From positions 1-20,857 of the IMG/VR virus record IMGVR_UViG_3300027906_000188: a stretch of DNA of 20,857 bases. One strand, given 5' to 3'. Under the pieces are notes generated by a model. It was not told where the DNA came from and ran no database searches. It was given only the letters and a program-made list of their open reading frames with translations. The position numbers were made by a program, and so were the translations under genes. Origin of the DNA: a virus. This document shows positions 2 through 17,428 of the stretch, piece after piece. Position 1 is the first letter of the stretch, and every line of letters begins with the position of its first letter.

Positions 2-2728
2 TTTACTGGTAGTGTTTCTATTGGTAAGACATTAACATATGAAGATGTAAAGAATGTAGATTCAATTGGAGTTGTTACTGCTAGGACTGGAGTTAAAGTA
101 ACTGGTGGTGATTTCACAGTTGGTACAGCAATCACTGCTAGTTCTGTAACTGGTAACGTAACTAATGATGTAGGGATAACAACTTATAGTGGTTCTGCTG
201 TATGGTTTAAGGGTGCGACTGCCAATAAGGATATGTATTGGAGTCATTCTTCTGGTGCTACTGTCTATAAAGACAATGCCCAGATTTTGATGGGAGATTC
301 GTCAGACTTACAATTAAAACATGACGGTACAAATAGTTACTTAAATAACAGTACTGGACAATTACGAATAGCTGCAGCTGCGGTAAGAATTAATAATGCA
401 GCTAGTAGTGAGTCGATGATATCAGCTGATGAAAATGGATCCGTTGAATTATACTATAATAATTCAAAGAAATTAGAAACCACTAATACGGGAGTGAAGA
501 TTAATAATTCTTCTACTACTGATATGCTTTTATTAGATGTTAGTGGAACTAATTTTGCAAAGATAGGACATAATTCTGCAGGTGGAGTAGCAGTATTAGA
601 TGTAAGAAGTGAAGGACATACAAGGTTCTTGACTGGTGGAAATTCTGAAAGACTTCGCATCGACTCAAGTGGAAGATTATTAACTTCAGGACAAACAACA
701 TCCGTTGCCGATGCAAGTAATTTACATGCTCACATACAATCTCATAGTGCAGATGGTAATGCTTTAAGTCTTGGTAGATATTCAGCTAATGCTTATGATC
801 CCTATATAAGTTTTTTCAAGAGTCGAAACGCTACGATAGGTAGTAATGGGACTATAGTTCAAGACGGTGATACTCTTGGAACCTTCAATTTTTATGGTGC
901 AACTGGGAGTGCATGGGATCATGCTGCATATCTCCAAGTAAAAGTAGACGGAACGCCTGGTGCTAGTAATGATATGCCTGTTGAATTTACATGGCATAAT
1001 CAAGCAGATGGACAACAACATCCTGCTCATACTATGTCTCTTAGAGCAAATGGAGACTTAGAAGTTAAAACTGGAAATTTAGGTCTGGGTATTTCTGCTG
1101 TCCCACAAGACTCAGGTGCCAAAACTCTTCATATACATCACCCAACTTCTGGTAATCCTGCTAGAGCACATCTTCGCCTTACGACTGGAACTTCTGGAAG
1201 TGCTGCCTCTAATGGTGCTTTATTAGGACTAGATTATAGCAATAATTTATATCTTTATAACCATGAAAATGGAGAGTTAAGAGTTGGTACTAATGATACT
1301 GAAAAACTTCGCATCTCATCAACTGGTGTTGTACAAATACAAGATAGTACTGGCAGTACGCAAGGTAATGCTCAATTATTAGTCCGTAAAGGTGTTGGTG
1401 GTGGTGCTACTCCAGAAACAGTCACCAGAACAAATTCTTATATGCATTTAGGTGGTACTGAATGGGGAGCTAATGCAGCTGGAGTCTATGCATTATCTTT
1501 TGGATATACTAATGGTACAGTTGGTACTTATGTTCCAGCTTACATTGCATTTAAAGAAACTACAACCAGTAGTTATACTAGGGGAGATTTAGTTTTTGGT
1601 ATTAAAGCTGGAACTAGTGATGTTGCCACTACAGAAAGAATGCGTATCAATTCAAGTGGGCAAGTTTGGATCGGAAGTCATGCTCAGTATGGGCCAAACG
1701 CTTATAACCTAGCGGATAGTGGTGTCGCTATTACTGCCGCAGGAGAAAATGTTTTAAAAGTACTTGATTCTACCTCTTATGCAGCAGATGTTGGAGGAGC
1801 CATTCTTATGGGTGGTAACTATAGATCATCAAATGATACACAACCATTTGTAGAATTAAAATCTTTCAAAGAAAATGCGACAGATGCTAATTACGCTTAT
1901 GGTTTCAAAATAAGTACTTCAGCAAATGGTCAAAGCATTACAGAAAGACTTCGCATTTCATCAGGTGGAAAAGTAACTATAAATCCATATAACACATTTC
2001 ACAGTCCTACTCATCAACCTACACTCACATTATCTAACGAATCAGAATCTAATTTATATCAAGGTGGTAAATGGTCACACGCTGCGATAGGTCTTCATAA
2101 CACCACGCATACTGCAAATGGTGGTTCTAAGTCTCAGATTGTCTTTGGTTATCTTCCTCGTGCTGGTGGTTATAATTTTGAATTCGGTGCTGCATATATT
2201 GGTGCAACTTCTGTCAGTCAATCTGGTGCAGGTAAAGTAGATTTAGTATTCGGAACAAAAGATGCTACCAGTGATACTCAACCAACAGAAAGACTTCGCA
2301 TCACATCTGCTGGACACGTAACAACACCATCACAACCATCATTTGCTTGCTATAGAAATCAATCTGTTTGGAATGTGAATAATGCTGTCATGCAGTTTAA
2401 TACGACAAGACATAATACAGGTAATCATTATAATACTTCTAATGGTAAATTTACTGCACCTGTAGCTGGATCATATCAATTTAATTTTTTCTCAATTTAT
2501 AGAGGTAATCATACAAGTGCTCATGTTTACATTCGGAAAAATGGTAGTAGTATAAATGGTGGTTATGTACATTTTACATTTTACGATTTAGGTAATAATT
2601 GGGACAATGTTTCATTTAGTACAGTGCTTTATTTGGCTAAAGATGATTATGTAGAGATGTACAGTCCTAATAATATTGATTGGCATGGTAATGGTTGGCA
2701 ATGTTGGAGTGGTTATCTACTAGGATAA
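2..2728 (+). CDS. Long modular tail fibre, 5'-truncated by window, C1q-like tip
   Basis: The frame is open from base 2 with no start codon of its own; the ATG at 233 is internal, because the upstream residues (IGKTLTYEDVKN...GVVTAR) match a module in the fibre at 3389. The 908 visible residues are repetitive and rich in Gly, Ser, Asn and Thr. A module ending in T-E-R-L-R-I-x-S-x-G-x-V recurs five times; the DNA core GAAAGACTTCGCAT or a close variant starts at 647, 1301, 1634, 1943 and 2288. HDGTNS...TGQLRI near residue 110 is shared with the second fibre. The last ~130 residues (from about 2335) resemble a C1q/TNF-like jelly roll: FTAPVAGSYQF, then YLAKDDYVEM and a final WSGYLLG. Such tips often bind receptors. 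Inferred role: a structural adhesin for host attachment. The fibre assignment is strong, the receptor unknown. Confidence 0.88.
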   Translation, partial: FTGSVSIGKTLTYEDVKNVDSIGVVTARTGVKVTGGDFTVGTAITASSVTGNVTNDVGITTYSGSAVWFKGATANKDMYWSHSSGATVYKDNAQILMGDSSDLQLKHDGTNSYLNNSTGQLRIAAAAVRINNAASSESMISADENGSVELYYNNSKKLETTNTGVKINNSSTTDMLLLDVSGTNFAKIGHNSAGGVAVLDVRSEGHTRFLTGGNSERLRIDSSGRLLTSGQTTSVADASNLHAHIQSHSADGNALSLGRYSANAYDPYISFFKSRNATIGSNGTIVQDGDTLGTFNFYGATGSAWDHAAYLQVKVDGTPGASNDMPVEFTWHNQADGQQHPAHTMSLRANGDLEVKTGNLGLGISAVPQDSGAKTLHIHHPTSGNPARAHLRLTTGTSGSAASNGALLGLDYSNNLYLYNHENGELRVGTNDTEKLRISSTGVVQIQDSTGSTQGNAQLLVRKGVGGGATPETVTRTNSYMHLGGTEWGANAAGVYALSFGYTNGTVGTYVPAYIAFKETTTSSYTRGDLVFGIKAGTSDVATTERMRINSSGQVWIGSHAQYGPNAYNLADSGVAITAAGENVLKVLDSTSYAADVGGAILMGGNYRSSNDTQPFVELKSFKENATDANYAYGFKISTSANGQSITERLRISSGGKVTINPYNTFHSPTHQPTLTLSNESESNLYQGGKWSHAAIGLHNTTHTANGGSKSQIVFGYLPRAGGYNFEFGAAYIGATSVSQSGAGKVDLVFGTKDATSDTQPTERLRITSAGHVTTPSQPSFACYRNQSVWNVNNAVMQFNTTRHNTGNHYNTSNGKFTAPVAGSYQFNFFSIYRGNHTSAHVYIRKNGSSINGGYVHFTFYDLGNNWDNVSFSTVLYLAKDDYVEMYSPNNIDWHGNGWQCWSGYLLG
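13..45 (+). repeat. 33-bp direct repeat shared with second fibre gene, copy 1
   Basis: These 33 bases are identical to 4996-5028 in the second fibre gene; flanking similarity runs from base 1 to about base 90. Both copies encode SIGKTLTYED in the same frame. The match lies inside a protein module common to both fibres, so it reflects a duplicated or exchanged fibre segment. Confidence 0.85.
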
Positions 2729-8018: not shown

Positions 8019-8618
8019 GTGAAATTATCTTACAATGCGGTTCCATTCTTCCCAAGTATGGTTCATGAATTTAAAAATCTTAAATTTGATGATATAAAAA
8101 ATGACTTAATTGAATATGTATATAATGAAAGAGAAAATGATCCTGCAGGACAAGAGTTTTCAAATAGGGGTGGATGGCAATCCACACCATTCAAGATAAG
8201 TGATGAAAATAATACAATACATTCATACATATATGATTCTATTTCAAATTTTACAGTAGTTAATCAGGGTGTACGGATGTACATTGATGCGTGGATGAAT
8301 ATTAATCCTAAAGGTTCTTTTAATGAGAAACATACACATCCTGGTTGTGCTTTTGCTGGAACTATATGGATAAAGATTCCAGAAAATTCTGGTAATTTAT
8401 ATTTTTATTCTCCTTTTGGACATATTAGTAGTGATGAAATAATGTCATATGATTCAAATTTTTCAAATTCTTTTAATATACCTCATACAGCATTCACTAT
8501 ACCTGAAGAAGGTAAGATGTTAATTTTTCCGTCATATCTAGAACACTCTGTTGCAGAAAATAATTCAGATGAAGATAGAATTTCAATGTCATTTAATATA
8601 AAGATAGATAATAGTTGA
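8019..8618 (+). CDS. Putative 2OG-Fe(II) oxygenase (TIGR02466-like)
   Basis: This 199-residue protein starts at GTG 8019 with no clear ribosome binding site; the next in-frame ATG (8058) would remove the conserved-looking NAVPFFPSMVHEF opening. It resembles the small putative 2OG-Fe(II) oxygenases of the TIGR02466 type. It has an AWMNINPKGSFNEKHTHPG stretch with His105/His107 as candidate metal ligands, then a beta strand (AGTIWIKIP), GKMLIFPSYLEHSV with distal His176, and Arg187 as candidate 2-oxoglutarate ligand. These enzymes couple 2-oxoglutarate decarboxylation to hydroxylation; the substrate is not predictable. It opens the modification cassette directly after the fibre-assembly gene. 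An extended -10 promoter for the next gene begins right after its stop. Confidence 0.75.
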   Translation: MKLSYNAVPFFPSMVHEFKNLKFDDIKNDLIEYVYNERENDPAGQEFSNRGGWQSTPFKISDENNTIHSYIYDSISNFTVVNQGVRMYIDAWMNINPKGSFNEKHTHPGCAFAGTIWIKIPENSGNLYFYSPFGHISSDEIMSYDSNFSNSFNIPHTAFTIPEEGKMLIFPSYLEHSVAENNSDEDRISMSFNIKIDNS

Positions 8619-8623
8619 CACCA

Positions 8624-8633
8624 GTGCTATAAT
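8624..8633 (+). promoter_or_regulatory. Possible extended -10 promoter (GTGCTATAAT)
   Basis: GTGCTATAAT contains an extended -10 (TGCTATAAT) and recurs at 14282-14291, with a close variant at 14851-14860. It ends 23 bases before the ATG at 8657. A TTGACA at 8615-8620 is only 7 bases upstream and so cannot be its -35. TTGACA with TATTAT at 8636-8641 (15-base spacer) is a weaker alternative. It could make the 8657-12277 genes a separate transcript. Confidence 0.5.
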
Positions 8634-8656
8634 TATATTATGTGATAATAGATTGA

Positions 8657-9889
8657 ATGAAGTTCAGTATTATAACTCCTGCTCATAAGAAGACACCATA
8701 TATTAAAGAATTATATGATAGCATCGTTGCCCAGACATATGAGGATTGGGAATGGATTCTGTGGTTGAATAATGATATTCAGAAATCAGATTTAGATGAG
8801 AGTATATTAAATGATAATAGAGTTATTATTCATAGGACTGAAAGTAAATCAAAGAATGTAGGATATCATAAGCACTATGCTTTTCATGAAGGTAGTGGTG
8901 ATGTTCTAGTAGAAATAGATTCTGATGATTTAATTACATCAGATTGTCTTGAAGAATTGTATACAGCATACCAAGATCCTGAAGTAGGTTTTGCTTTCAG
9001 TGATGTTGTAATGTATCAGGATGATTTTGTCCCATACAATTCAGAACATGGATGGACACAATATCCTGAGAAGTATAAGTTTAGAGGTAAAGAATATACT
9101 GTAATGAACTCGTGGAAACCTACGAGTCAATCTCTTGCTTTCATATGGTATGCTCCAGATCATGTAAGGAGTTGGAGAAGAGATGTTTATAGAAGTGTTG
9201 GTGGACATGATAAAGAGTTAAGTATATGTGATGATCATGACTTAATGATTCGTACTTATCTTGTTGCTAAGATGCATCACGTTAAGAAACCTCTGTATAT
9301 TTACAGGGTGACTGGTGATAACACATGGTTAGAAAGGAATGAAGCAATACAAAGAATTACAGTTGAACTGTATAATAAGTATGCGTTCCAGTTAGCAGAG
9401 AAAGATGCTGATGATAGAGGATTAACTAAGGTTGATATTGGTGGTGGGTTGTATCCAAAACCAGGATATCTAACAATAGATCAAGAAGATGCTGATGTTA
9501 CATGGAATCTTGATGACGGTATACCTTTACCAGATAATAGTGTTGGTGTTCTTAATGCCAGTCACGTTATAGAGCATCTTAAAGACCCTATAAAGACGAT
9601 GCGTGAGATTCATAGGGTATTGGCACACGGTGGTTGGGCAATGATTGAAGTCCCTTCTACTGATGGTAGAGGAGCATGGCAAGACCCAACTCACGTTAGC
9701 TTCTGGAACGAACATAGTTTCTGGTACTATACTAATCGTGATAAGGCAGTATTCATTCGCAACAATGATATAAGATTCCAAACATATAGATTAGAGACAT
9801 GGGATTCAGCACCAATGATTCCAGTTGTTACTGCATGGTTGGTTGCAATTAAAGATGAAGAGAGGTTCCCAGGAGTACTTGGGATATGA
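8657..9889 (+). CDS. GT2 glycosyltransferase-methyltransferase fusion
   Basis: This 410-residue protein has two enzyme domains. Residues 1-240 are a family 2 (GT-A) glycosyltransferase: FSIITPAHKK start, DSIVAQTYEDWEWILW, a metal-binding D-S-D-D at 88-91 and an acidic CDDHDLMIR motif at 191-199. Residues ~257-410 resemble a class I SAM-dependent methyltransferase: DIGGGLYPKPGYLTID (motif I, acidic Asp275), then ASHVIEHLKDP and a helix-strand pair MREIHRVLAHGGWAMIEVP as in Methyltransf_11 proteins. Known activities would be sugar transfer from a nucleotide sugar plus methylation of the sugar or acceptor. It heads a coupled run of four genes (ATGA overlap at 9886). Cytoplasmic; acceptor unknown: host surface glycan, virion protein or phage DNA are all possible. 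Confidence 0.85.
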   Translation: MKFSIITPAHKKTPYIKELYDSIVAQTYEDWEWILWLNNDIQKSDLDESILNDNRVIIHRTESKSKNVGYHKHYAFHEGSGDVLVEIDSDDLITSDCLEELYTAYQDPEVGFAFSDVVMYQDDFVPYNSEHGWTQYPEKYKFRGKEYTVMNSWKPTSQSLAFIWYAPDHVRSWRRDVYRSVGGHDKELSICDDHDLMIRTYLVAKMHHVKKPLYIYRVTGDNTWLERNEAIQRITVELYNKYAFQLAEKDADDRGLTKVDIGGGLYPKPGYLTIDQEDADVTWNLDDGIPLPDNSVGVLNASHVIEHLKDPIKTMREIHRVLAHGGWAMIEVPSTDGRGAWQDPTHVSFWNEHSFWYYTNRDKAVFIRNNDIRFQTYRLETWDSAPMIPVVTAWLVAIKDEERFPGVLGI

Positions 9890-10602
9890 TTCCATATGAT
9901 CATTGGGTAATTGATAATTTCTTTCCAGTTGAAATGGCAAGACAATTATCTAAGGAGTTTCCTGATTATAATGAACCTGATTGGCACTGGTATAATAATC
10001 CATTAGAGAATAAGAAAGCAAAGAATCATTGGTATGAGTTTCCACCTTTTACCTATCAGATATTTGCTCATTTAAATTCTGCTGAGTTTCTAGAATCTAT
10101 TCGGGAGATTACTGGTATTCAAACTCTGTATCCTGATGTAGGATTGCATGGTGGTGGATGGCATATGCATTCTCGTGGTGGTAAATTAAATATACATCTT
10201 GATTATAATATTAATCCTAAACTAAATCTTCAACGTAAACTAAATCTAATTGTATATCTTACAGAGGATTGGGATACTTCATGGGGTGGTGGACTTGAAT
10301 TGTGGTCACATGATGATGAAAAAAATCTACCTTTAAATAGAGAGGTTGTCGTTGACAATATCTTTAATCGTGCTATACTATTTGACACAACACAGAACTC
10401 TTGGCACGGATTACCACAACCAATAACCTGTCCTGAAGGTGTATATAGAAAGAGCATTGCTGTTTATTATATGACAGACATTCCAGAGGATGCTAACCAA
10501 AGAAAGAGAGCATTGTATGCTCCTACAAAAGAACAAGAAAATGATTCAGATGTTCTGGATTTTATTAAAGAAAGGGTGACATGGAAAAGCAAACAAAAAT
10601 AG
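9886..10602 (+). CDS. 2OG-Fe(II) oxygenase
   Basis: This 238-residue protein starts at the ATGA overlapping the stop of the glycosyltransferase-methyltransferase gene. It has the 2OG-Fe(II) oxygenase jelly roll: GGKLNIHLDYN with H104-x-D106, a central strand KLNLIVYLTEDW, NSWHGLP with distal His174, and GVYRKSIAVYY with Arg188 for 2-oxoglutarate. It is a clear paralogue of the protein at 16703, sharing the GG(K)L-x-x-H-x-D-x-N-I, FNRA-x-(I/L)F and PEG motifs. The likely reaction is 2-oxoglutarate-dependent hydroxylation, with unknown substrate. Lying between two glycosyltransferases, it may modify a sugar or a protein residue that is then glycosylated. The next gene starts inside its last 22 bases. 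Confidence 0.87.
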   Translation: MIPYDHWVIDNFFPVEMARQLSKEFPDYNEPDWHWYNNPLENKKAKNHWYEFPPFTYQIFAHLNSAEFLESIREITGIQTLYPDVGLHGGGWHMHSRGGKLNIHLDYNINPKLNLQRKLNLIVYLTEDWDTSWGGGLELWSHDDEKNLPLNREVVVDNIFNRAILFDTTQNSWHGLPQPITCPEGVYRKSIAVYYMTDIPEDANQRKRALYAPTKEQENDSDVLDFIKERVTWKSKQK

Positions 10603-11699
10603 CAATGATAACGATGTTTAAGAATGAAGCATCGGTTATGGAGAGGATGCTTGAGTCTTGCTATAAGTACATTGATTATTATGTCATGCAGGATAATGGT
10701 TCTACTGATGGTACTGCTGATATTGTAACAGAGTTCTTTAAGGGTAAGGGTATACCAGGATTTGTATATGAAGTAGAAGAAGGATGGGTAAGTTTCGGAT
10801 GGAATAGAGATCATTTACTACAGACATGTCTTAAGACTGAACACGGATGTGATTGGGTACTCAAGATGGATTGTGATGAGTACCTAGAAGTCGATGATGA
10901 TTTTGATTGGACACCGATTAATGATACTTCCCATCAGAGTTTTCATATTACAGCAGTCAATCCTGGATGTATTTACTATCGTGCTTGGATGTGGAACGCA
11001 AAACTTCCTTGGCATTTTAAGCATGACTTAGCACATGAATGTATTGTATGTGATATAGAAGGAGTTGGTGAAGCATTTGAACGATATGATTTACCAAATG
11101 GTATAAGACATGTTGGAACTAATGATGGTGAAAGTTATACTGTTCCTACTAAGTATCTCTCTGATGCATTGAAGTTAGAGGAGAAACATATACGTGAGGG
11201 TGATTTGTTGACAGATACATATCACTTCTTTTATGTTGCAAAGAGTTATGATGATTGTTATAAGGCAGACATCTATCCACTTGAGAATCATTCAAAAGAG
11301 TATGCTAGAAGAGCACTTTTTTATTATGAGGAGTATATAAATCATACTCAGAACTATAGAGAGTTGGGGTATGCTCAGGGCATAAATGAGATGGCATACT
11401 TTAGTTTCTATGCTATGGGTGACATCTATAAACATCTTGGTGAGTATGAGAAGGCAATGGATTGTTGTGTGAGAGCACAGGATTTTTGTCCAGTTAGAAA
11501 TGAACATATAGTTTGTCTTGCAGAATGCTTTATGAACATGGGTGATTATATTTCTATGAAAGAACAGACTGAGAAATTGGTAGATGAGAATAGGAAGTTG
11601 CCATTTCCTGAGTATTATTTTCTAATTAATAATAATTTCTATCCAGATTCAGGAACCTATGGTAAATATCTTCATCAGGTTGCTTGTGAAAACACATGA
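10581..11699 (+). CDS. Family 2 glycosyltransferase with TPR-like C-terminus
   Basis: This 372-residue protein starts behind AAAGGGTG, overlapping the previous gene by 22 bases. Residues ~6-115 are a GT-A glycosyltransferase core: KIAMITMFKNEA, the nucleotide-sugar motif QDNGSTDGT at 37-45 and the metal motif DCDE at 97-100. HECI and DLPNGIRHVGT follow. Residues ~230-345 are helical with a TPR-like pair (AYFSFYAMGDIYKHLGEYEKAMDCCVRA and the following ECFMNMGDYISMKEQ helix), as in SPBc2-type GT2 proteins. TPR segments often bind protein, so a protein acceptor is plausible, though only inferred. It is coupled by ATGA to the next gene. Confidence 0.85.
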   Translation: MEKQTKIAMITMFKNEASVMERMLESCYKYIDYYVMQDNGSTDGTADIVTEFFKGKGIPGFVYEVEEGWVSFGWNRDHLLQTCLKTEHGCDWVLKMDCDEYLEVDDDFDWTPINDTSHQSFHITAVNPGCIYYRAWMWNAKLPWHFKHDLAHECIVCDIEGVGEAFERYDLPNGIRHVGTNDGESYTVPTKYLSDALKLEEKHIREGDLLTDTYHFFYVAKSYDDCYKADIYPLENHSKEYARRALFYYEEYINHTQNYRELGYAQGINEMAYFSFYAMGDIYKHLGEYEKAMDCCVRAQDFCPVRNEHIVCLAECFMNMGDYISMKEQTEKLVDENRKLPFPEYYFLINNNFYPDSGTYGKYLHQVACENT

Positions 11700-12277
11700 A
11701 ATTTATACCAGTAACATCAATCAATAGAGCAGCACAAAAAACAGTGTGGGTAGTTGATAATTTCTATACAGATCCTTATGCTGTTAGAGACTTTGCATTG
11801 AAGCAAGAGTTTAAAGAAGACTTACGATACTATAAAGGAAGACGTACTGAAGAACAGTTCTATGTACCAGGAACTAAAGAAGCATTTGAACGTATCATGG
11901 GTATCAAGATACGTGAATGGGAATCTCATGGTATGAATGGTAGGTTTCAGTATTGTGTTCCTGAAGATCCCATTGTGTATCATAATGATGGACAGACATG
12001 GGCAGCAATGATATATCTACATCCCAATCCAGCATATAGTTGTGGTACATCTCTTTATGCTACTAAGGATGGTGCTATGAGGACTAGTGATTCAAATTAT
12101 GAAGGTGCTTTTGATGGTGGATTCTATGATGGAACTAAGTTTGAGTTGGTAGATTCTATTGGTAATGTATTCAATAGACTGTTCATTTTTGATGCACAAC
12201 ATATACATGCAGCATCACAATATTTTGGAACCAACAAAGAAGACTCTAGACTATTCCAAATTTTCTTCTTTGATTGA
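11696..12277 (+). CDS. DUF6445-like putative oxygenase
   Basis: This 193-residue protein starts at an ATGA overlap with the glycosyltransferase. It opens with VWVVDNFYTDPYAVRDFAL, as seen in proteins I would place in DUF6445, a group related to 2OG-Fe(II) oxygenases. Candidate active-site residues are His96 and Asp98 in YHNDGQTWAAMIYL, His169 or His171 in FDAQHIHAAS, and Arg185 in SRLFQIFFFD. That order (HxD, distal H, R) matches the oxygenase fold, but the family has no settled reaction that I know. It ends the four-gene coupled run; 45 bases follow before the glutaredoxin gene. Confidence 0.75.
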   Translation: MKFIPVTSINRAAQKTVWVVDNFYTDPYAVRDFALKQEFKEDLRYYKGRRTEEQFYVPGTKEAFERIMGIKIREWESHGMNGRFQYCVPEDPIVYHNDGQTWAAMIYLHPNPAYSCGTSLYATKDGAMRTSDSNYEGAFDGGFYDGTKFELVDSIGNVFNRLFIFDAQHIHAASQYFGTNKEDSRLFQIFFFD

Positions 12278-13851: not shown

Positions 13852-13960
13852 TTTCAAATATAACGCAAAAAAAACTCCGACATTTTTTTCGTATGTGAGG
13901 ATTTGTAACAATTTTGTAAACCTACTTGCATATATACTATACATGTGTTAGTATTAACAC
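13852..13960 (+). other. Non-coding leader region upstream of the tandem aptamers
   Basis: About 110 bases hold no convincing gene. It contains an A-run (13867-13874) and a T-run (13882-13889) around CTCCGAC, which could fold as a weak A-T hairpin. The most plausible promoter is TTGTAA (13914-13919), 18 bases, TATACA (13938-13943), which would start transcription just before the first aptamer. Confidence 0.6.
13914..13943 (+). promoter_or_regulatory. Possible sigma-70 promoter for the riboswitch leader
   Basis: TTGTAA and TATACA are separated by 18 bases; both hexamers are imperfect. Predicted initiation is near 13950, which places both aptamers entirely in the 5' leader of the 14089 gene. 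TATACT at 13933-13938 overlaps and is an alternative -10 with no good -35. Confidence 0.4.
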
Positions 13961-14012
13961 AATCGTTCATCCTGATACATTCAGGACGCAAGTAAGCCGA
14001 CTCGGAACGGAT
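13961..14012 (+). ncRNA. Glutamine riboswitch-like aptamer 1 (glnA/Downstream-peptide type)
   Basis: The segment matches the pattern I know for glutamine-binding glnA and Downstream-peptide RNAs of cyanobacteria and cyanophages. P1 is CGTTC (13964-13968) with GAACG (14005-14009). A hairpin CCTGA-TACAT-TCAGG follows (13971-13985), then the conserved ACGCAAGTAAGCCGA stretch leading into GGAACG. These aptamers bind L-glutamine and control downstream genes, and the Downstream-peptide class typically precedes short reading frames, as here. The identification is by eye; a covariance-model search would settle it. Confidence 0.8.
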
Positions 14013-14058
14013 TCGTTCATCTCTTTCGGGAGACGCAAAAGCCGACTAAAGGAACGGA
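14011..14058 (+). ncRNA. Glutamine riboswitch-like aptamer 2, in tandem
   Basis: This second copy begins immediately after the first. P1 is CGTTC (14014-14018) with GAACG (14052-14056). The hairpin is TCTC (14020-14023), loop TTTCGG, then GAGA (14030-14033). The conserved core ACGCAAAAGCCGACTAAAGGAACGG is slightly shorter than in copy 1. The sequences differ in the hairpin but keep the pairing, which supports selection on structure. It ends about 30 bases before the ATG at 14089. GGAG (14078-14081), the likely ribosome binding site, sits in the loop of a small CTTT/AAAG hairpin. Confidence 0.78.
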
Positions 14059-14088
14059 GTAAAATCCCTACTACTTTGGAGAAAGCCA

Positions 14089-14232
14089 ATGGCAAAAGTC
14101 ACTTATCGTGGACACGAATACGATACAAATGAGTATCGTAGAGCTCTTATCGAAGAGCATAACCAAGTAAGAAATCACGATCTAATGTATCGTGGTATCA
14201 AGGTTAGAAGCAAGGCAGTCCCTTGTTCTTAA
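14089..14232 (+). CDS. 47-residue YRG-motif peptide (DUF4278-like)
   Basis: A short basic peptide is read from ATG 14089 to TAA 14232, behind GGAG at 14078-14081. It has two Tyr-Arg-Gly motifs, TYRGHEYD (residues 5-12) and MYRGIKV (residues 33-39), as in DUF4278 proteins of cyanobacteria and their phages. An Arg/Glu-rich helix (EYRRALIEEHNQVRNH) lies between them. There is no signal or membrane segment. It is the only gene between the tandem glutamine aptamers and an intrinsic terminator, so it appears to form its own glutamine-controlled transcript. Glutamine control suggests a role in the nitrogen state of the infected cell, perhaps as a small regulator of a host enzyme. That function is inference. 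Confidence 0.8.
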   Translation: MAKVTYRGHEYDTNEYRRALIEEHNQVRNHDLMYRGIKVRSKAVPCS

Positions 14233-14255
14233 GTCCAAGAACTTAATATCAATTG

Positions 14256-14281
14256 AGGAGGGTTGTTACCCTCCTTTTTTT
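14256..14281 (+). terminator. Intrinsic terminator
   Basis: GGAGGGT (14257-14263), loop TGTT, ACCCTCC (14268-14274), then seven T residues (14275-14281). It is a GC-rich perfect stem, conspicuous in this AT-rich DNA, placed 24 bases after the stop of the 47-residue peptide gene. It ends the riboswitch-controlled transcript and shares bases with the promoter of the next gene. Confidence 0.92.
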
Positions 14282-14291
14282 GTGCTATAAT
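14263..14291 (+). promoter_or_regulatory. Promoter overlapping the terminator (TTGTTA-17-TATAAT)
   Basis: TTGTTA (14263-14268) lies in the loop and 3' arm of the terminator, followed by a 17-base spacer and an extended -10, TGCTATAAT (14283-14291). Initiation would fall near 14298, the first base of the next ATG. This predicts a leaderless or nearly leaderless mRNA. Confidence 0.65.
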
Positions 14292-14297
14292 AAAGAA

Positions 14298-14840
14298 ATG
14301 GAATTATTTAATAGTTGGCAATGGCAAAAGGGAGAAATTCCTGATGAGATATGTGATTATATTATTAATAATATAGATGATAATTTATATAAAAAAGGTG
14401 AAGTAGCAAATAGTAAGTTAAAGTCTGCAAGAAATGTAAATATACAAACCACTAATATCAATTGGATAAATGCATTACTTGGTGGTTATATAAGGTATGC
14501 TAATTCTAAAAATTTTAATTACAATTTATCGGATAATGATATAGAATCAGCACAGATTTCTAAGTATTCTGTAGGTGAATATTATGGTGAGCATATGGAT
14601 TTTGGAAAGGATGATAATCTAACAAGAAAGTTAAGTCTAACTGTTCAACTTTCGGATGAAAATGATTATGAAGGAGGGGATCTTATATTTTACACTGGTT
14701 CTAATAGAGAAAAATCTTCTAGAGGTAAAGGAAGTGTTATTGTTTTTGATAGTAGATTGTATCATGAAATAACTCCCGTCACTAAAGGTGTGAGATATTC
14801 TTTGGTTAAATGGTATCATGGAGATGTACCATTGAAATAA
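14298..14840 (+). CDS. Prolyl-4-hydroxylase-like 2OG-Fe(II) oxygenase
   Basis: The 180-residue product is read from ATG 14298; an earlier in-frame start at 14253 would run through the terminator. It resembles P4H/PKHD-type oxygenases: ISKYSVGEYYGEHMDFG with H99-x-D101, KLSLTVQLSDENDYEGGDLIFY, GSVIVFDSRLYHEITPV with distal His156, and GVRYSLVKWYHG with Arg166. All ligands for iron and 2-oxoglutarate are present. The known family reaction is hydroxylation of amino-acid side chains, often Pro, in proteins; the substrate here is unknown. Cyanophages commonly carry such genes. It has its own promoter and no visible ribosome binding site, consistent with a leaderless transcript. Confidence 0.87.
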   Translation: MELFNSWQWQKGEIPDEICDYIINNIDDNLYKKGEVANSKLKSARNVNIQTTNINWINALLGGYIRYANSKNFNYNLSDNDIESAQISKYSVGEYYGEHMDFGKDDNLTRKLSLTVQLSDENDYEGGDLIFYTGSNREKSSRGKGSVIVFDSRLYHEITPVTKGVRYSLVKWYHGDVPLK

Positions 14841-14860
14841 TTATAAGTATGTGCTATACT
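14832..14860 (+). promoter_or_regulatory. Sigma-70 promoter (TTGAAA-17-TATACT) for the thyX pair
   Basis: TTGAAA (14832-14837) and TATACT (14855-14860) are 17 bases apart, with an extended TG two bases before the -10. The -35 overlaps the end of the upstream oxygenase gene. Transcription from about 14867 gives a short leader with AGGA just before the ATG at 14886. Confidence 0.75.
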
Positions 14861-14885
14861 ATATGAAATGAAAATTTTCTAGGAT

Positions 14886-15047
14886 ATGGAGACTGGTAGA
14901 GCAAAACGTCTTGTTAAAATGCTTGAGAGATTACTCAAGCAAGATCATCTTTATAGTGACGAGGAAATTAAAACCATCAAGGCACAACTTAGAGTAGTTA
15001 AAGAAGAACTTGCTCAATTAAAAGTATCAAAAGGATTTGGTAAATGA
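14886..15047 (+). CDS. Small coiled-coil protein upstream of thyX
   Basis: A 53-residue protein is read from ATG 14886, with AGGA just upstream, to TGA 15047, overlapping the thyX start as ATGA. It is almost entirely helical and charged: RAKRLVKMLERLLKQDHLYSDEE, then IKTIKAQLRVVKEELAQLK, with leucine/valine spacing typical of a two-helix coiled coil. No family is recognised. The promoter just upstream and the coupled thyX downstream support it as a real gene. Any functional link to ThyX is only suggested by the overlap. Confidence 0.78.
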   Translation: METGRAKRLVKMLERLLKQDHLYSDEEIKTIKAQLRVVKEELAQLKVSKGFGK

Positions 15048-15676
15048 ACGTAAAACTTGTAAGCATTACTCCTGATGCGGAGCAACTCATGGCATACATT
15101 GCCAGAGTATCTAACCCATCTAATCAGGACAATGAAAAGTATGCAGGACTATTAAAGTATTGCATCAAGCATAATCATTGGAGTGTCTTTGAGCAGTCTA
15201 CTATGACTCTTGAGATTGAGACTACTCGTGCTATTGCTGCACAGATATTACGTCATAGAAGTTTCACATTCCAAGAGTTCTCTCAAAGGTATGCTGCTAG
15301 TACTGCACTTGGTGATATTCCATTGCCAGAATTGAGAAGGCAGGATACAAAGAACCGTCAGAATTCTACTGATGATTTGGAACCTAAGTTAGTTGAGTCA
15401 CTCAACAGACAGATGGATACATTGTTTAGTTCTTCTCTAGCACTTTACAATCAGATGCTTGAGGATGGTGTTGCTAAAGAGTGTGCTAGAATGGTACTAC
15501 CTTTATGTACTCCTACCAGAATCTATATGACTGGTTCATGTCGTTCTTGGATACACTATATCAATCTACGTTCTGCACATGGTACTCAGAAAGAGCACAT
15601 GGTGATTGCAGAATCATGTAGGAAAGTGTTTACCGAACAGTTCCCTGCAGTCTCAGAAGCCCTTGATTGGCTATAA
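15044..15676 (+). CDS. thyX: Flavin-dependent thymidylate synthase
   Basis: This 210-residue protein is ThyX: it carries the signature R-H-R-x7-S (Arg70-His71-Arg72, Ser80, in RHRSFTFQEFSQRY) and later conserved stretches AKECARMVLPLCTPTRIYMTG and SWIHYINLRSAHGTQKEHMVIAE. ThyX makes dTMP from dUMP using methylenetetrahydrofolate, NADPH and FAD. Length is normal for the family. It replaces the unrelated ThyA-type enzyme of T4 and supplies dTTP for the AT-rich phage genome, in line with the glutaredoxin upstream. The start overlaps the small coiled-coil gene by ATGA. Confidence is high. Confidence 0.95.
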   Translation: MNVKLVSITPDAEQLMAYIARVSNPSNQDNEKYAGLLKYCIKHNHWSVFEQSTMTLEIETTRAIAAQILRHRSFTFQEFSQRYAASTALGDIPLPELRRQDTKNRQNSTDDLEPKLVESLNRQMDTLFSSSLALYNQMLEDGVAKECARMVLPLCTPTRIYMTGSCRSWIHYINLRSAHGTQKEHMVIAESCRKVFTEQFPAVSEALDWL

Positions 15677-15679
15677 ATA
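15672..15679 (+). promoter_or_regulatory. T4-type late promoter (TATAAATA)
   Basis: CTATAAATA matches the T4-like late promoter exactly. It begins at the thyX stop and lies 22 bases before the ATG at 15701. It is the best late box in the window and implies that the 15701 gene, and perhaps phoH after it, is expressed late. Confidence 0.65.
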
Positions 15680-15700
15680 TCTTTACATTATTTAATTATT

Positions 15701-15949
15701 ATGGCAACATATCCTGTTAGAAATACGAATACTGGTGAAACAAAAGAAGTGTTTATGAGTGTTCATGACTGGGATCAGTGGAAAAAAGATAATCCAGATT
15801 GGTTTAGAGACTTTTCAGATCCAAGTACATGTCCTGGTGTAGGAGAAGTAGGAGAATGGAAAGATAAGTTAGTTAAATCTAAACCTGGATGGAATGAAGT
15901 ATTAGACAGAGCATCAAGACAACCAGGAGCTACGGTTAAGAAAATCTAA
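15701..15949 (+). CDS. Small FmdB-like/conserved cyanophage protein
   Basis: This 82-residue protein opens MATYPVRNTNTGETKEVFMSVHDWDQWKKDNPDWFRDF and ends EVGEWKDKLVKSKPGWNEVLDRASRQPG. I recall similar short proteins next to phoH in cyanophages, sometimes labelled FmdB-like regulators, with the same W-K-x-x-NP(D)W and PGW---L motifs. The zinc-ribbon cysteines of true FmdB proteins are absent; only one Cys is present. Function is unknown. It follows an exact late-type promoter and overlaps phoH by one base (TAATG), so the two are probably co-translated. Confidence 0.75.
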   Translation: MATYPVRNTNTGETKEVFMSVHDWDQWKKDNPDWFRDFSDPSTCPGVGEVGEWKDKLVKSKPGWNEVLDRASRQPGATVKKI

Positions 15950-16701
15950 TGCCAAGAAAAAAGAAAGTAGAACAACCTATTGGGGTTGGATTGACTACTA
16001 AACAAAGGAGGAGAAAGAAACCTCTTAGTGCAGGTTATCTTCTTGATATCGAACCAATAACTGACAATCAAAAAGTTTTATTTGATTCTTATAAAGCAGA
16101 TAAACATCTTGTTGCTTATGGTGCAGCAGGTACAGGTAAAACTTTTGTTACCTTATATAATGCACTTAAGGATGTATTGGATGATCATACACCCTATGAA
16201 AGAATCTATATTGTACGTTCACTAGTTGCTACTAGGGAAATAGGATTTCTTCCTGGTGATTATGAGGACAAGTCTGACATATATCAGGTGCCTTATAAGC
16301 ACATGGTAAAGTACATGTTTCAGATGCCATCTGATGCAGACTTTGAAATGTTATATGGAAATCTTAAGTCACAGGATACAATTAAGTTTTGGAGTACTTC
16401 ATTCTTAAGAGGTACTACTCTTGACAATGCTATTGTTATTGTTGATGAGTTCCAGAATTTAAACTTCCATGAACTTGATAGTATAATGACAAGGGTTGGA
16501 GAGAATAGTAAGATAATGTTCTGTGGTGATGCCAGTCAGACAGACTTGCAGAAAACAAATGATAGGAATGGTATCGTAGACTTCATGAACATCTTGCGTA
16601 AAATGCAATCCTTTGATATAATAGAGTTTAGTGTTGATGACATAGTTCGTTCAGGACTTGTTAAAGAATACATTATTGCTAAGCTAGACTCTGGTTTATA
16701 A
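15949..16701 (+). CDS. phoH: PhoH-like ATPase
   Basis: This 250-residue protein has a PhoH-type P-loop ATPase domain: Walker A GAAGTGKT at 58-65, YIVRSLVATREIGFLPGD, Walker B AIVIVDEFQN with Asp166-Glu167, and a sensor stretch KIMFCGDASQTDL. The first ~30 residues are basic (PRKKK, KQRRRKKP). PhoH proteins are ATPases induced by phosphate starvation in bacteria, and phoH is one of the most common auxiliary genes of marine phages; its role in infection is unclear, with RNA or nucleotide metabolism proposed. No pho box is evident nearby; the closest regulatory signal is the late box before the 15701 gene. Confidence 0.93.
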   Translation: MPRKKKVEQPIGVGLTTKQRRRKKPLSAGYLLDIEPITDNQKVLFDSYKADKHLVAYGAAGTGKTFVTLYNALKDVLDDHTPYERIYIVRSLVATREIGFLPGDYEDKSDIYQVPYKHMVKYMFQMPSDADFEMLYGNLKSQDTIKFWSTSFLRGTTLDNAIVIVDEFQNLNFHELDSIMTRVGENSKIMFCGDASQTDLQKTNDRNGIVDFMNILRKMQSFDIIEFSVDDIVRSGLVKEYIIAKLDSGL

Positions 16702-16702
16702 T

Positions 16703-17428
16703 ATGCAAATCTTTAGTGATTATGATCAGGGAAAGAAGTTAAACTTTAATTACTTAAAGTCTAAACCCTTCCCTCATATAGTTTTAGATAACTTTATTAA
16801 TCCTGCTGCTGCAATGCAGTGCTTTAATGAATTAAAATCTACAAACTATTGGCAGACTGAAGATTCTAATAATGCATATATGGCAGCACATCAAGTGAGT
16901 AAGTGGTTTACTCCTTGGGATGCTCAGAGTACAGAACAACTTAAGTACCAAGTTCCCACAGTTCATAATACTATTCAGTATTTTAACTCTAAGTTATTTC
17001 TTTCATATCTTGAGGAATTAACTGGTATCAAAGGGTTGATGGGAGACCCAGGTTTCTCAGGTGGTGGAGCACACAAGATAAGAACGGGTGGTAAGTTATC
17101 ATTACATGTTGACTTTAACATTCATTCTGAGACAAAACGTTTCAGAGTTCTTAATCTTCTTCTTTATCTTAATCCTCAATGGGAGGAAGAGTGGGAAGGT
17201 GCATTAGAATTATGGGATTTAGACAATAAGAAACTAACTGATAAGATATATCCTATCTTTAACAGAGCAGTTATCTTTACCCTGTCTGATAAATCAGTTC
17301 ATGGACATCCCGTTCCCTTAAAAACACCAGAAGGAATTGAAAGATATTCTTTAGCACTTTATTATTACATTGAAGAACCCAACCAAGAATATTATGAAAG
17401 GAACTCAGTTGTCTGGCATGAACTTTAA
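16703..17428 (+). CDS. 2OG-Fe(II) oxygenase, paralogue of the 9886 protein
   Basis: This 241-residue protein starts one base after the phoH stop. Active-site residues are clear: GGKLSLHVDFNIH with H135-x-D137, VLNLLLYLNPQWEEEWEGALELW, FNRAVIFTLSDKSVHGHP with distal His200, and GIERYSLALYYY with Arg214. It shares order and several motifs with the protein at 9886, so one probably arose by duplication or both came from a common phage pool. The reaction is presumably 2-oxoglutarate-dependent hydroxylation; the substrate is unknown. Being located between phoH and DNA-replication genes, it may act on a different target from the copy inside the glycosyltransferase cassette. Confidence 0.87.
   Translation: MQIFSDYDQGKKLNFNYLKSKPFPHIVLDNFINPAAAMQCFNELKSTNYWQTEDSNNAYMAAHQVSKWFTPWDAQSTEQLKYQVPTVHNTIQYFNSKLFLSYLEELTGIKGLMGDPGFSGGGAHKIRTGGKLSLHVDFNIHSETKRFRVLNLLLYLNPQWEEEWEGALELWDLDNKKLTDKIYPIFNRAVIFTLSDKSVHGHPVPLKTPEGIERYSLALYYYIEEPNQEYYERNSVVWHEL

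Follow-up and report, generated by a model that had tools for sequence, protein, structure and literature searches.

Two touching copies of a glutamine-riboswitch-like sequence in a phage leader raise the question of whether they constitute two riboswitches or one. We investigated such a locus in the window, by which we mean the whole 20.9-kb stretch of DNA analysed, a fragment of a T4-like marine cyanophage as judged from its gene content (the marker genes are those for tail fibres, 2OG-Fe(II) oxygenases, thyX, PhoH, a gp59-type helicase loader and an ssDNA-binding protein). The leader with the element follows a gene whose last position is 13851 and precedes a gene of 47 codons that starts at 14089. 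Behind the tail-fibre genes, PHROG matches to 2OG-Fe(II) oxygenase or 'DNA endonuclease V' are found for several genes at positions 8019-12277 and 14253-17428, among which lie one methyltransferase-like and one glycosyltransferase-like gene.

The sequence-only reading had proposed two glutamine aptamers in direct tandem, with common outer stems and with hairpins of different sequence but preserved pairing. Two copies of CGTTCA-hairpin-ACGCAA...GCCGAC...GGAACG are indeed present, at 13964-14009 and 14014-14056. The CGTTC/GAACG stem strands lie at 13964-13968/14005-14009 in copy 1 and at 14014-14018/14052-14056 in copy 2, and the hairpins are UCCUGA/UCAGGA and UCUCU-UUCG-GGAGA, respectively. P1 CGUUC/GAACG, the P2 hairpin and J2/3 CGNA of the type-I glutamine riboswitch (glnA, RF01739) are all found in the window. 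The covariance-model search suggested with that reading gave a divided answer. At the Rfam gathering thresholds (35 bits for RF01739 and 33 bits for RF01704, the Glutamine-II or Downstream-peptide model) the window had no match, but below the thresholds each copy was the top match of its region: copy 2 (14012-14060) scored 32.0 bits with RF01739, and copy 1 (13961-14016) scored 30.6 bits with RF01704 and 27.0 bits with RF01739. RF01739 searched alone gave E = 4.1e-7 and 9.6e-6 for the two copies (within this record), and the same locus passes its cut-off of 35 in the relatives AG-345-P14 (37.8), P-TIM68 (35.4) and P-SSM2 (35.1). Since both copies are the best sub-threshold matches and relatives pass the cut-off at the same locus, the presence of the copies is confirmed. 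The two-copy signal is not chance, and the proposed kinship with glutamine riboswitches holds. So does the placement in a phage leader, which here stands in front of a nitrogen-linked DUF4278-type gene.

We conclude that the segment is quite probably one interleaved double glutamine riboswitch, located at the start of an early phage mRNA and controlling a DUF4278-type peptide. The features of the unit are as follows.

13926-13954, plus strand: sigma70-like early promoter (TTGCAT, 17 nt, TAGTAT), with a predicted RNA start at about 13961
13964-13968, plus strand: P1 5' strand, CGUUC of copy 1, pairing with 14052-14056 according to RNAalifold on relatives, the minimum free energy (MFE) fold of the window and linchpin covariation
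13970-13986, plus strand: outer-pocket P2 hairpin, UCCUGA/UCAGGA with loop UACAU, with compensatory changes in all five pairs counted
13987-13994, plus strand: outer J2/3 CGC, with linchpin base C13989 (partner G14057) and the AGUA half of loop E (13991-13994)
13995-14002, plus strand: P3 5' strand AGCCGACU, pairing with 14040-14047
14005-14018, plus strand: inner-pocket P1', hairpin GAACG-GAUU-CGUUC, formed by the copy 1 3' stem and the copy 2 5' stem
14020-14033, plus strand: inner-pocket P2 hairpin, UCUCU-UUCG-GGAGA, whose loop is a whole ORF in most relatives
14034-14038, plus strand: inner-pocket J2/3 CGCAA, with linchpin base C14036 (partner G14010)
14040-14057, plus strand: P3 3' strand (14040-14047), AAA half of loop E (14048-14050), G14051, P1 3' strand GAACG (14052-14056) and linchpin base G14057
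14074-14081, plus strand: putative switching segment CUUUGG-AG, of which 14074-14079 can pair with 14046-14051 (CUAAAG)
14089-14232, plus strand: gene for a DUF4278-like 47-aa peptide (MAKVTYRGHEYDTNEYRR...), phrog_5049
14255-14283, plus strand: intrinsic terminator

In the proposed fold, the outer pocket would have the canonical type-I strand order. Its P1 would be formed by CGUUC of copy 1 and GAACG of copy 2, followed by P2 of copy 1, J2/3 with the linchpin base, and then loop E atop a P3 helix that joins the two copies. The hairpin loop of this P3 would be replaced by a second, circularly permuted pocket, consisting of the GAACG/CGUUC hairpin of the touching stems (P1'), P2 and J2/3 of copy 2, and a linchpin of its own. 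Because the inner pocket has no loop E, its ability to bind a ligand is uncertain.

We then collected relatives by pattern scans of IMG/VR and from phage records, obtaining at least 183 cores in at least 182 loci, the window included. The core pattern was CG(C/G)AAGTA-a-CGGAACG-(3 to 6 nt)-CGTTCA...CGNA(A/C)-a'-(G/A)AAGGAACG, where a and a' are the putative P3 strands. The relatives were selected by exact P1 patterns, which hide P1 variation. Percentages describe the matches listed; kinship among the relatives inflates raw counts, and the tree-based figures are the conservative ones. Three scans for natural variants of the P1 strand, made in search of P1 covariation, returned 0, 0 and 1 match, the last being unrelated. 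P1 therefore shows no covariation, as its strands are invariant by the search pattern and practically so in nature too. The loop of the P1' hairpin is 3-6 nt long in all of the at least 183 cores, while the search pattern allowed 2-8. When genome contigs were scanned with the core pattern, almost every match looked accidental, save one on a Prochlorococcus single-cell contig (L250, CABZLA010000036.1). This contig, probably phage DNA in the sorted cell, carries the double element in full, each of its P2 loops holding a gene. The core occurs, via that contig, in 1/151 Prochlorococcus-group genomes and is absent from the other 150, whereas RF01739 matches are found in 57/151 genomes of the wider family; the double form therefore looks phage-specific.

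The distribution of loop E points to one structure formed by the two copies. In about 180 related phage loci the type-I loop E is split: copy 1 has only the AGUA half and copy 2 only the GAA ((G/A)AA) half, so that AGUA/RAA on a P3 is present only across the copies and within neither of them. Where a phage carries a single type-I aptamer (L032, L049, L055 and others), the two halves flank the P3 hairpin of that same aptamer. The a and a' strands are complementary in many different forms (AGTCG/CGACT, ATTCG/CGAAT, AGTCA/TGACT, GGACGG/CCGCCC, AGCCGACG/CGCCGACT and GGCTAACG/CGTTGAGCT). Over 35 distinct strand pairs, the inter-copy P3 pairing score is 13.64, compared to 9.64 (sd 0.43) with shuffled partners (0/5000). 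In the alignments with the P2 loops cut out, 17 cells are changed on both sides for the inter-copy P3 and none for the intra-copy alternative. On a tree of the short downstream peptides, the P3 end pair changed concordantly in 8/8 independent pairs (p 0.008). RNAalifold, unaided, proposes the whole nested fold for the class with a 5-bp P3, where this fold is 99.3% paired (A2 alignment). For the 8-bp class, to which the window belongs, it recovers the outer P1 and the inner hairpin and misses P3, which has A.C/A.A mismatches there. In a degenerate element (L115:2899-3230), J2/3 of copy 2 is gone, yet an inter-copy P3 of 8 bp survives together with the inner hairpin. When the window segment is folded to its MFE with no constraint, the inner hairpin and the outer P1 already form. 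ViennaRNA, however, prefers a non-nested fold: calculated without ligand or loop-E terms, the nested fold lies on average 7.9 kcal/mol above the free minimum.

The linchpin pair provides a further test of the strand connections. In the solved structure of type I, glutamine sits between two J2/3 bases, G22 and G23, the latter of which inserts into P1 to form a ligand-dependent pair with C60 (PMC11477058); covariation of this one-pair pseudoknot has been noted (PMC7657543, PMC12510878). Here, G23 corresponds to N of CGNA and C60 to the base after GAACG. The partner bases were free in our search patterns and parser, and the copy 1 position was limited to C or G by the parser. The outer linchpin, between the copy 1 J2/3 base and the base after the copy 2 GAACG, is complementary in 174/174 of the loci listed (141 C-G and 33 G-C), and on the peptide tree it changed concordantly in 5/5 supported independent pairs (p 0.06). 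Between this copy 1 base and the one that follows the GAACG of copy 1 itself there is no covariation (31 cases of G/G). The inner linchpin, between the copy 2 base and the base after the copy 1 GAACG, is complementary in 172/174, with G-U counted (168 C-G, 2 G-C and 2 G-U). As the linchpins pair across the copies, two pockets appear to be assembled from strands of both copies. In single aptamers of picocyanobacterial hosts, the J2/3 linchpin base is G and its partner C in 6/6. These host-family aptamers (L348, L349, L353, L354, L356, L359) have P1 CGUUG/CAACG and a G-C linchpin, and those of phages have CGUUC/GAACG and mostly C-G.

P3, P2 and the linchpins are thus supported by comparison among relatives. 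In the window itself, P3 has 6/8 standard pairs and two A.C mismatches, and both linchpins are C-G, fitting either topology; its assignment to the interleaved form therefore comes from homology with the relatives.

These results bear on how tandem glutamine riboswitches have been read in the literature. A paper of 2010 already noted glnA RNAs in tandem (PMC2864571), and in 2022, 157 doublets and 4 triplets were classed as pseudo-cooperative, with cases having ORFs in between set aside (PMC9481103). On this reading, the window would hold two independent type-I (or type-II plus type-I) aptamers, each with its own P1, and would respond pseudo-cooperatively. Each copy alone does match an Rfam glutamine model, CGUUC/GAACG can form within each copy, and AG-CCGA-CU could give a 2-bp P3 inside a copy. 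However, the linchpin and P3 covary between the copies and not within them, half of loop E is missing from each copy, and 12/32 aligned relatives have lost the P3 end pair within a copy but retain the one between copies. We consider this explanation improbable. On the same grounds, the earlier idea of two self-standing aptamers, each closed by an outer stem of its own, is not supported. Because P3, loop E and the linchpin all form between the copies, a sharper response through two independent aptamers is the wrong model; both pockets belong to a single fold.

A two-state switch, in which the four identical stem strands exchange between nested and side-by-side folds, with P1 formed as in type I or type II and the balance shifted by glutamine, also has a low probability in our view. 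All four stem strands are mutually complementary and invariant, and the type-II model, with P1 pseudoknotted with P3, gives the best score for copy 1. Yet both linchpins are explained by the nested state only, and the side-by-side state has no supporting covariation. A type-II pseudoknot, with the P1 3' strand in the P3 loop, is a possible alternative state, and the linchpin covariation favours the nested fold over it. Finally, a decayed or repurposed riboswitch, retained as a protein-binding or RNA-stability element after loss of glutamine sensing, is very improbable: the Rfam scores are under the cut-off and the J2/3 linchpin G is replaced by C, but this change is always compensated, about 180 loci retain J2/3, loop E and the pairing of P2, and the DUF4278 target is conserved.

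We then investigated the transcription unit that the interleaved element heads. The promoter ends 9 nt upstream of the first CGTTC, and a TTGNNN-16..18-TANNNT site is found 4-14 nt upstream of the element in 153/177 relatives, compared to 2.2% in shuffled flanks. With the promoter just upstream, in the relatives as well, the RNA should start almost at the first stem. The terminator at 14255-14283 makes promoter, riboswitch and peptide gene a self-contained unit of about 320 nt. The window peptide scores 23.9 bits with DUF4278 (PF14105), below the Pfam gathering score of 25.3; its homologues in P-TIM68 and P-SSM7 pass, with 26.0 and 30.3 bits. A YRG/DUF4278-type peptide is encoded downstream of the element in 163/164 relatives, usually 29-40 nt after the last stem strand, so that comparison supports the target gene as it does the promoter. 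In P-TIM40 (L008:1459-1653), a manA RNA (141.7 bits) directly follows the DUF4278 gene and precedes talC. In cyanobacteria, DUF4278 genes are the main targets of glutamine riboswitches, and expression is raised by glutamine with both riboswitch types (PMC6316151). DUF4278 corresponds to the N-terminal region of IF17, an inactivating factor (inhibitor) of glutamine synthetase (PMC6316151). The phage peptide may act on host glutamine synthetase.

How glutamine, the presumed ligand, would control this gene is suggested by the sequence around the ribosome-binding site. Without glutamine, the loop-E strand CURAAG would pair with CUUYAG/CUUUGG at the ribosome-binding site. With glutamine, which would stabilise both pockets and the shared P3, this strand would be held in P3 and loop E, the site would be free and the peptide would be made. 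The two strands are complementary in about 100/148 distinct leaders, and 47/148 have no CUUYAG/CUUUGG-type segment. CUUCAG was found with GAAG in 22/22 and with AAAG in 0/34 (p 5.5e-5). In the window, the helix 14046-14051/14074-14079 would cover part of the ribosome-binding site GGAG (14078-14081), and this overlap fits an ON switch. The predicted accessibility of the ribosome site, however, did not differ between the two states (mean 0.26 vs 0.27). ON polarity, as for the cyanobacterial glutamine riboswitches, would be our expectation. Since the pockets would stand back to back on one shared P3, a ligand at one should favour the fold required by the other, and two ligands might be bound cooperatively.

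We found that the P2 hairpins of many relatives contain genes. The loop of the copy 2 P2 is a whole ORF in S-SSM7, P-SSM7, S-SSM4, S-SSM5, P-RSM1, P-TIM40, ACG-2014b and P-SSM2, and the loop of the outer-pocket P2 (13970-13986 in the window) can hold a gene as well; in P-HM1 and P-RSM4 both loops are whole ORFs. In cultured phages these ORFs are mostly annotated as ordinary hypothetical proteins. Embedded genes occur in L005, L007-L009, L011-L015 and about 95 IMG/VR loci. Among the 172 resolved elements listed, 66 have no ORF, 70 have one in copy 2 only, 20 in copy 1 only and 16 in both; among the matches listed by the core-based scan, 67/79 resolved loci have at least one. The window represents the minimal form, with no embedded genes. 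Nearly all copy 2 ORFs have their ATG 3-5 nt downstream of CGTTCA; in copy 1 the distance is 4-7 nt. Of the copy 2 ORFs, 80/86 stop with the U(G/A)A of the P3/loop-E border, and 17/36 copy 1 ORFs stop with the UAA of CGCAAGUAA. The P2 stem is kept across 140-220 nt of ORF, with compensatory changes: the mean contiguous stem is 5.1 and 6.0 bp, compared to 3.8 and 4.2 with shuffled arms (0/2000 for both). In 52/59 distinct copy 2 arm pairs, the A of the start codon lies inside the stem. The embedded genes are under purifying selection, with a pooled dN/dS of 0.20 (copy 1) and 0.21 (copy 2) and pN < pS in every pair. They belong to phrog_504, phrog_6471 and phrog_13397, and their proteins have an N-terminal hydrophobic stretch, with two invariant Cys in the aligned phrog_504-like set. 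The predicted structure of an embedded phrog_504 protein has two helices (pLDDT 78), and a PDB search with it gave no significant match.

Ligand-stabilised P2 stems would in these relatives enclose complete genes that start at or in the stem and stop in or beside loop E. We tentatively suggest a gene-bearing switch with two reciprocal outputs, a reading to which we give somewhat less than even weight: glutamine would switch on the DUF4278 peptide and switch off the embedded proteins, while the sensor would in turn be unfolded when an embedded gene is translated. In two loci the loop of the inner GAACG/CGUUC hairpin is expanded (gaps of 549 nt in L065 and 44 nt in L038). The L065 insert ends in a stretch that may be the tail of an HNH-type homing endonuclease, and that of L038 looks like a shortened remnant; a mobile element inside the riboswitch is possible.

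In the open-access papers searched, neither the interleaved fold nor genes placed within aptamer hairpins are described. Should the phage form prove to be a single interleaved double pocket, the class of 'tandem' elements as a whole would have to be re-read, and nature would here have turned a duplicated aptamer into a dimer with circular permutation and a shared helix. Genes embedded in such hairpins would newly couple RNA sensing with translation. The element also offers a testable route by which abundant marine phages could sense the glutamine of their host and respond by making a peptide akin to the IF17 N-terminus.

Among known systems, the element resembles the type-I glnA RNA (RF01739) in P1 CGUUC/GAACG, P2, J2/3 CGNA, loop E AGUA/GAA and the linchpin pair, as well as in its DUF4278 target and cyanobacterial or marine context. 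It differs in that another pocket, circularly permuted, replaces the hairpin loop of P3, the linchpin is mostly C-G instead of G-C, and the P2 loops carry genes in relatives. With Glutamine-II (RF01704), the best model for copy 1, it shares a short downstream peptide gene and the CGCA junction; unlike that RNA, which has one pocket with P1 pseudoknotted into P3, it has the P3 3' strand behind the whole second copy. Like the glycine riboswitch, it has two homologous pockets and one expression platform. The aptamers of the glycine riboswitch are complete and touch by tertiary contacts, whereas each pocket here would be built from strands of both copies. Glutamine riboswitches have been published in T4-like cyanophages and other marine phages (PMC9964418, PMC9602691, PMC9004378), and those of S-CREM1, Melnitz and AG-345-P14 (PMC9964418, PMC9004378) share the phage setting and the RNA family with our element; they are reported as riboswitch-scan matches, and the available text of these reports describes neither interleaving nor embedded genes. 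Other phage contigs carry single type-I aptamers before a different gene (L032, L049, L055, L066, L085), mostly directly after a TATAAATA-like (T4-late-like) box. A further precedent is that of the tandem glutamine doublets (PMC9481103, PMC2864571), which likewise have two copies in one leader; the present loci and the published doublets are probably overlapping sets. In the available part of PMC9481103, however, the doublets are described as two complete pseudo-cooperative riboswitches, with no shared helix reported, whereas the copies studied here appear to share one P3.
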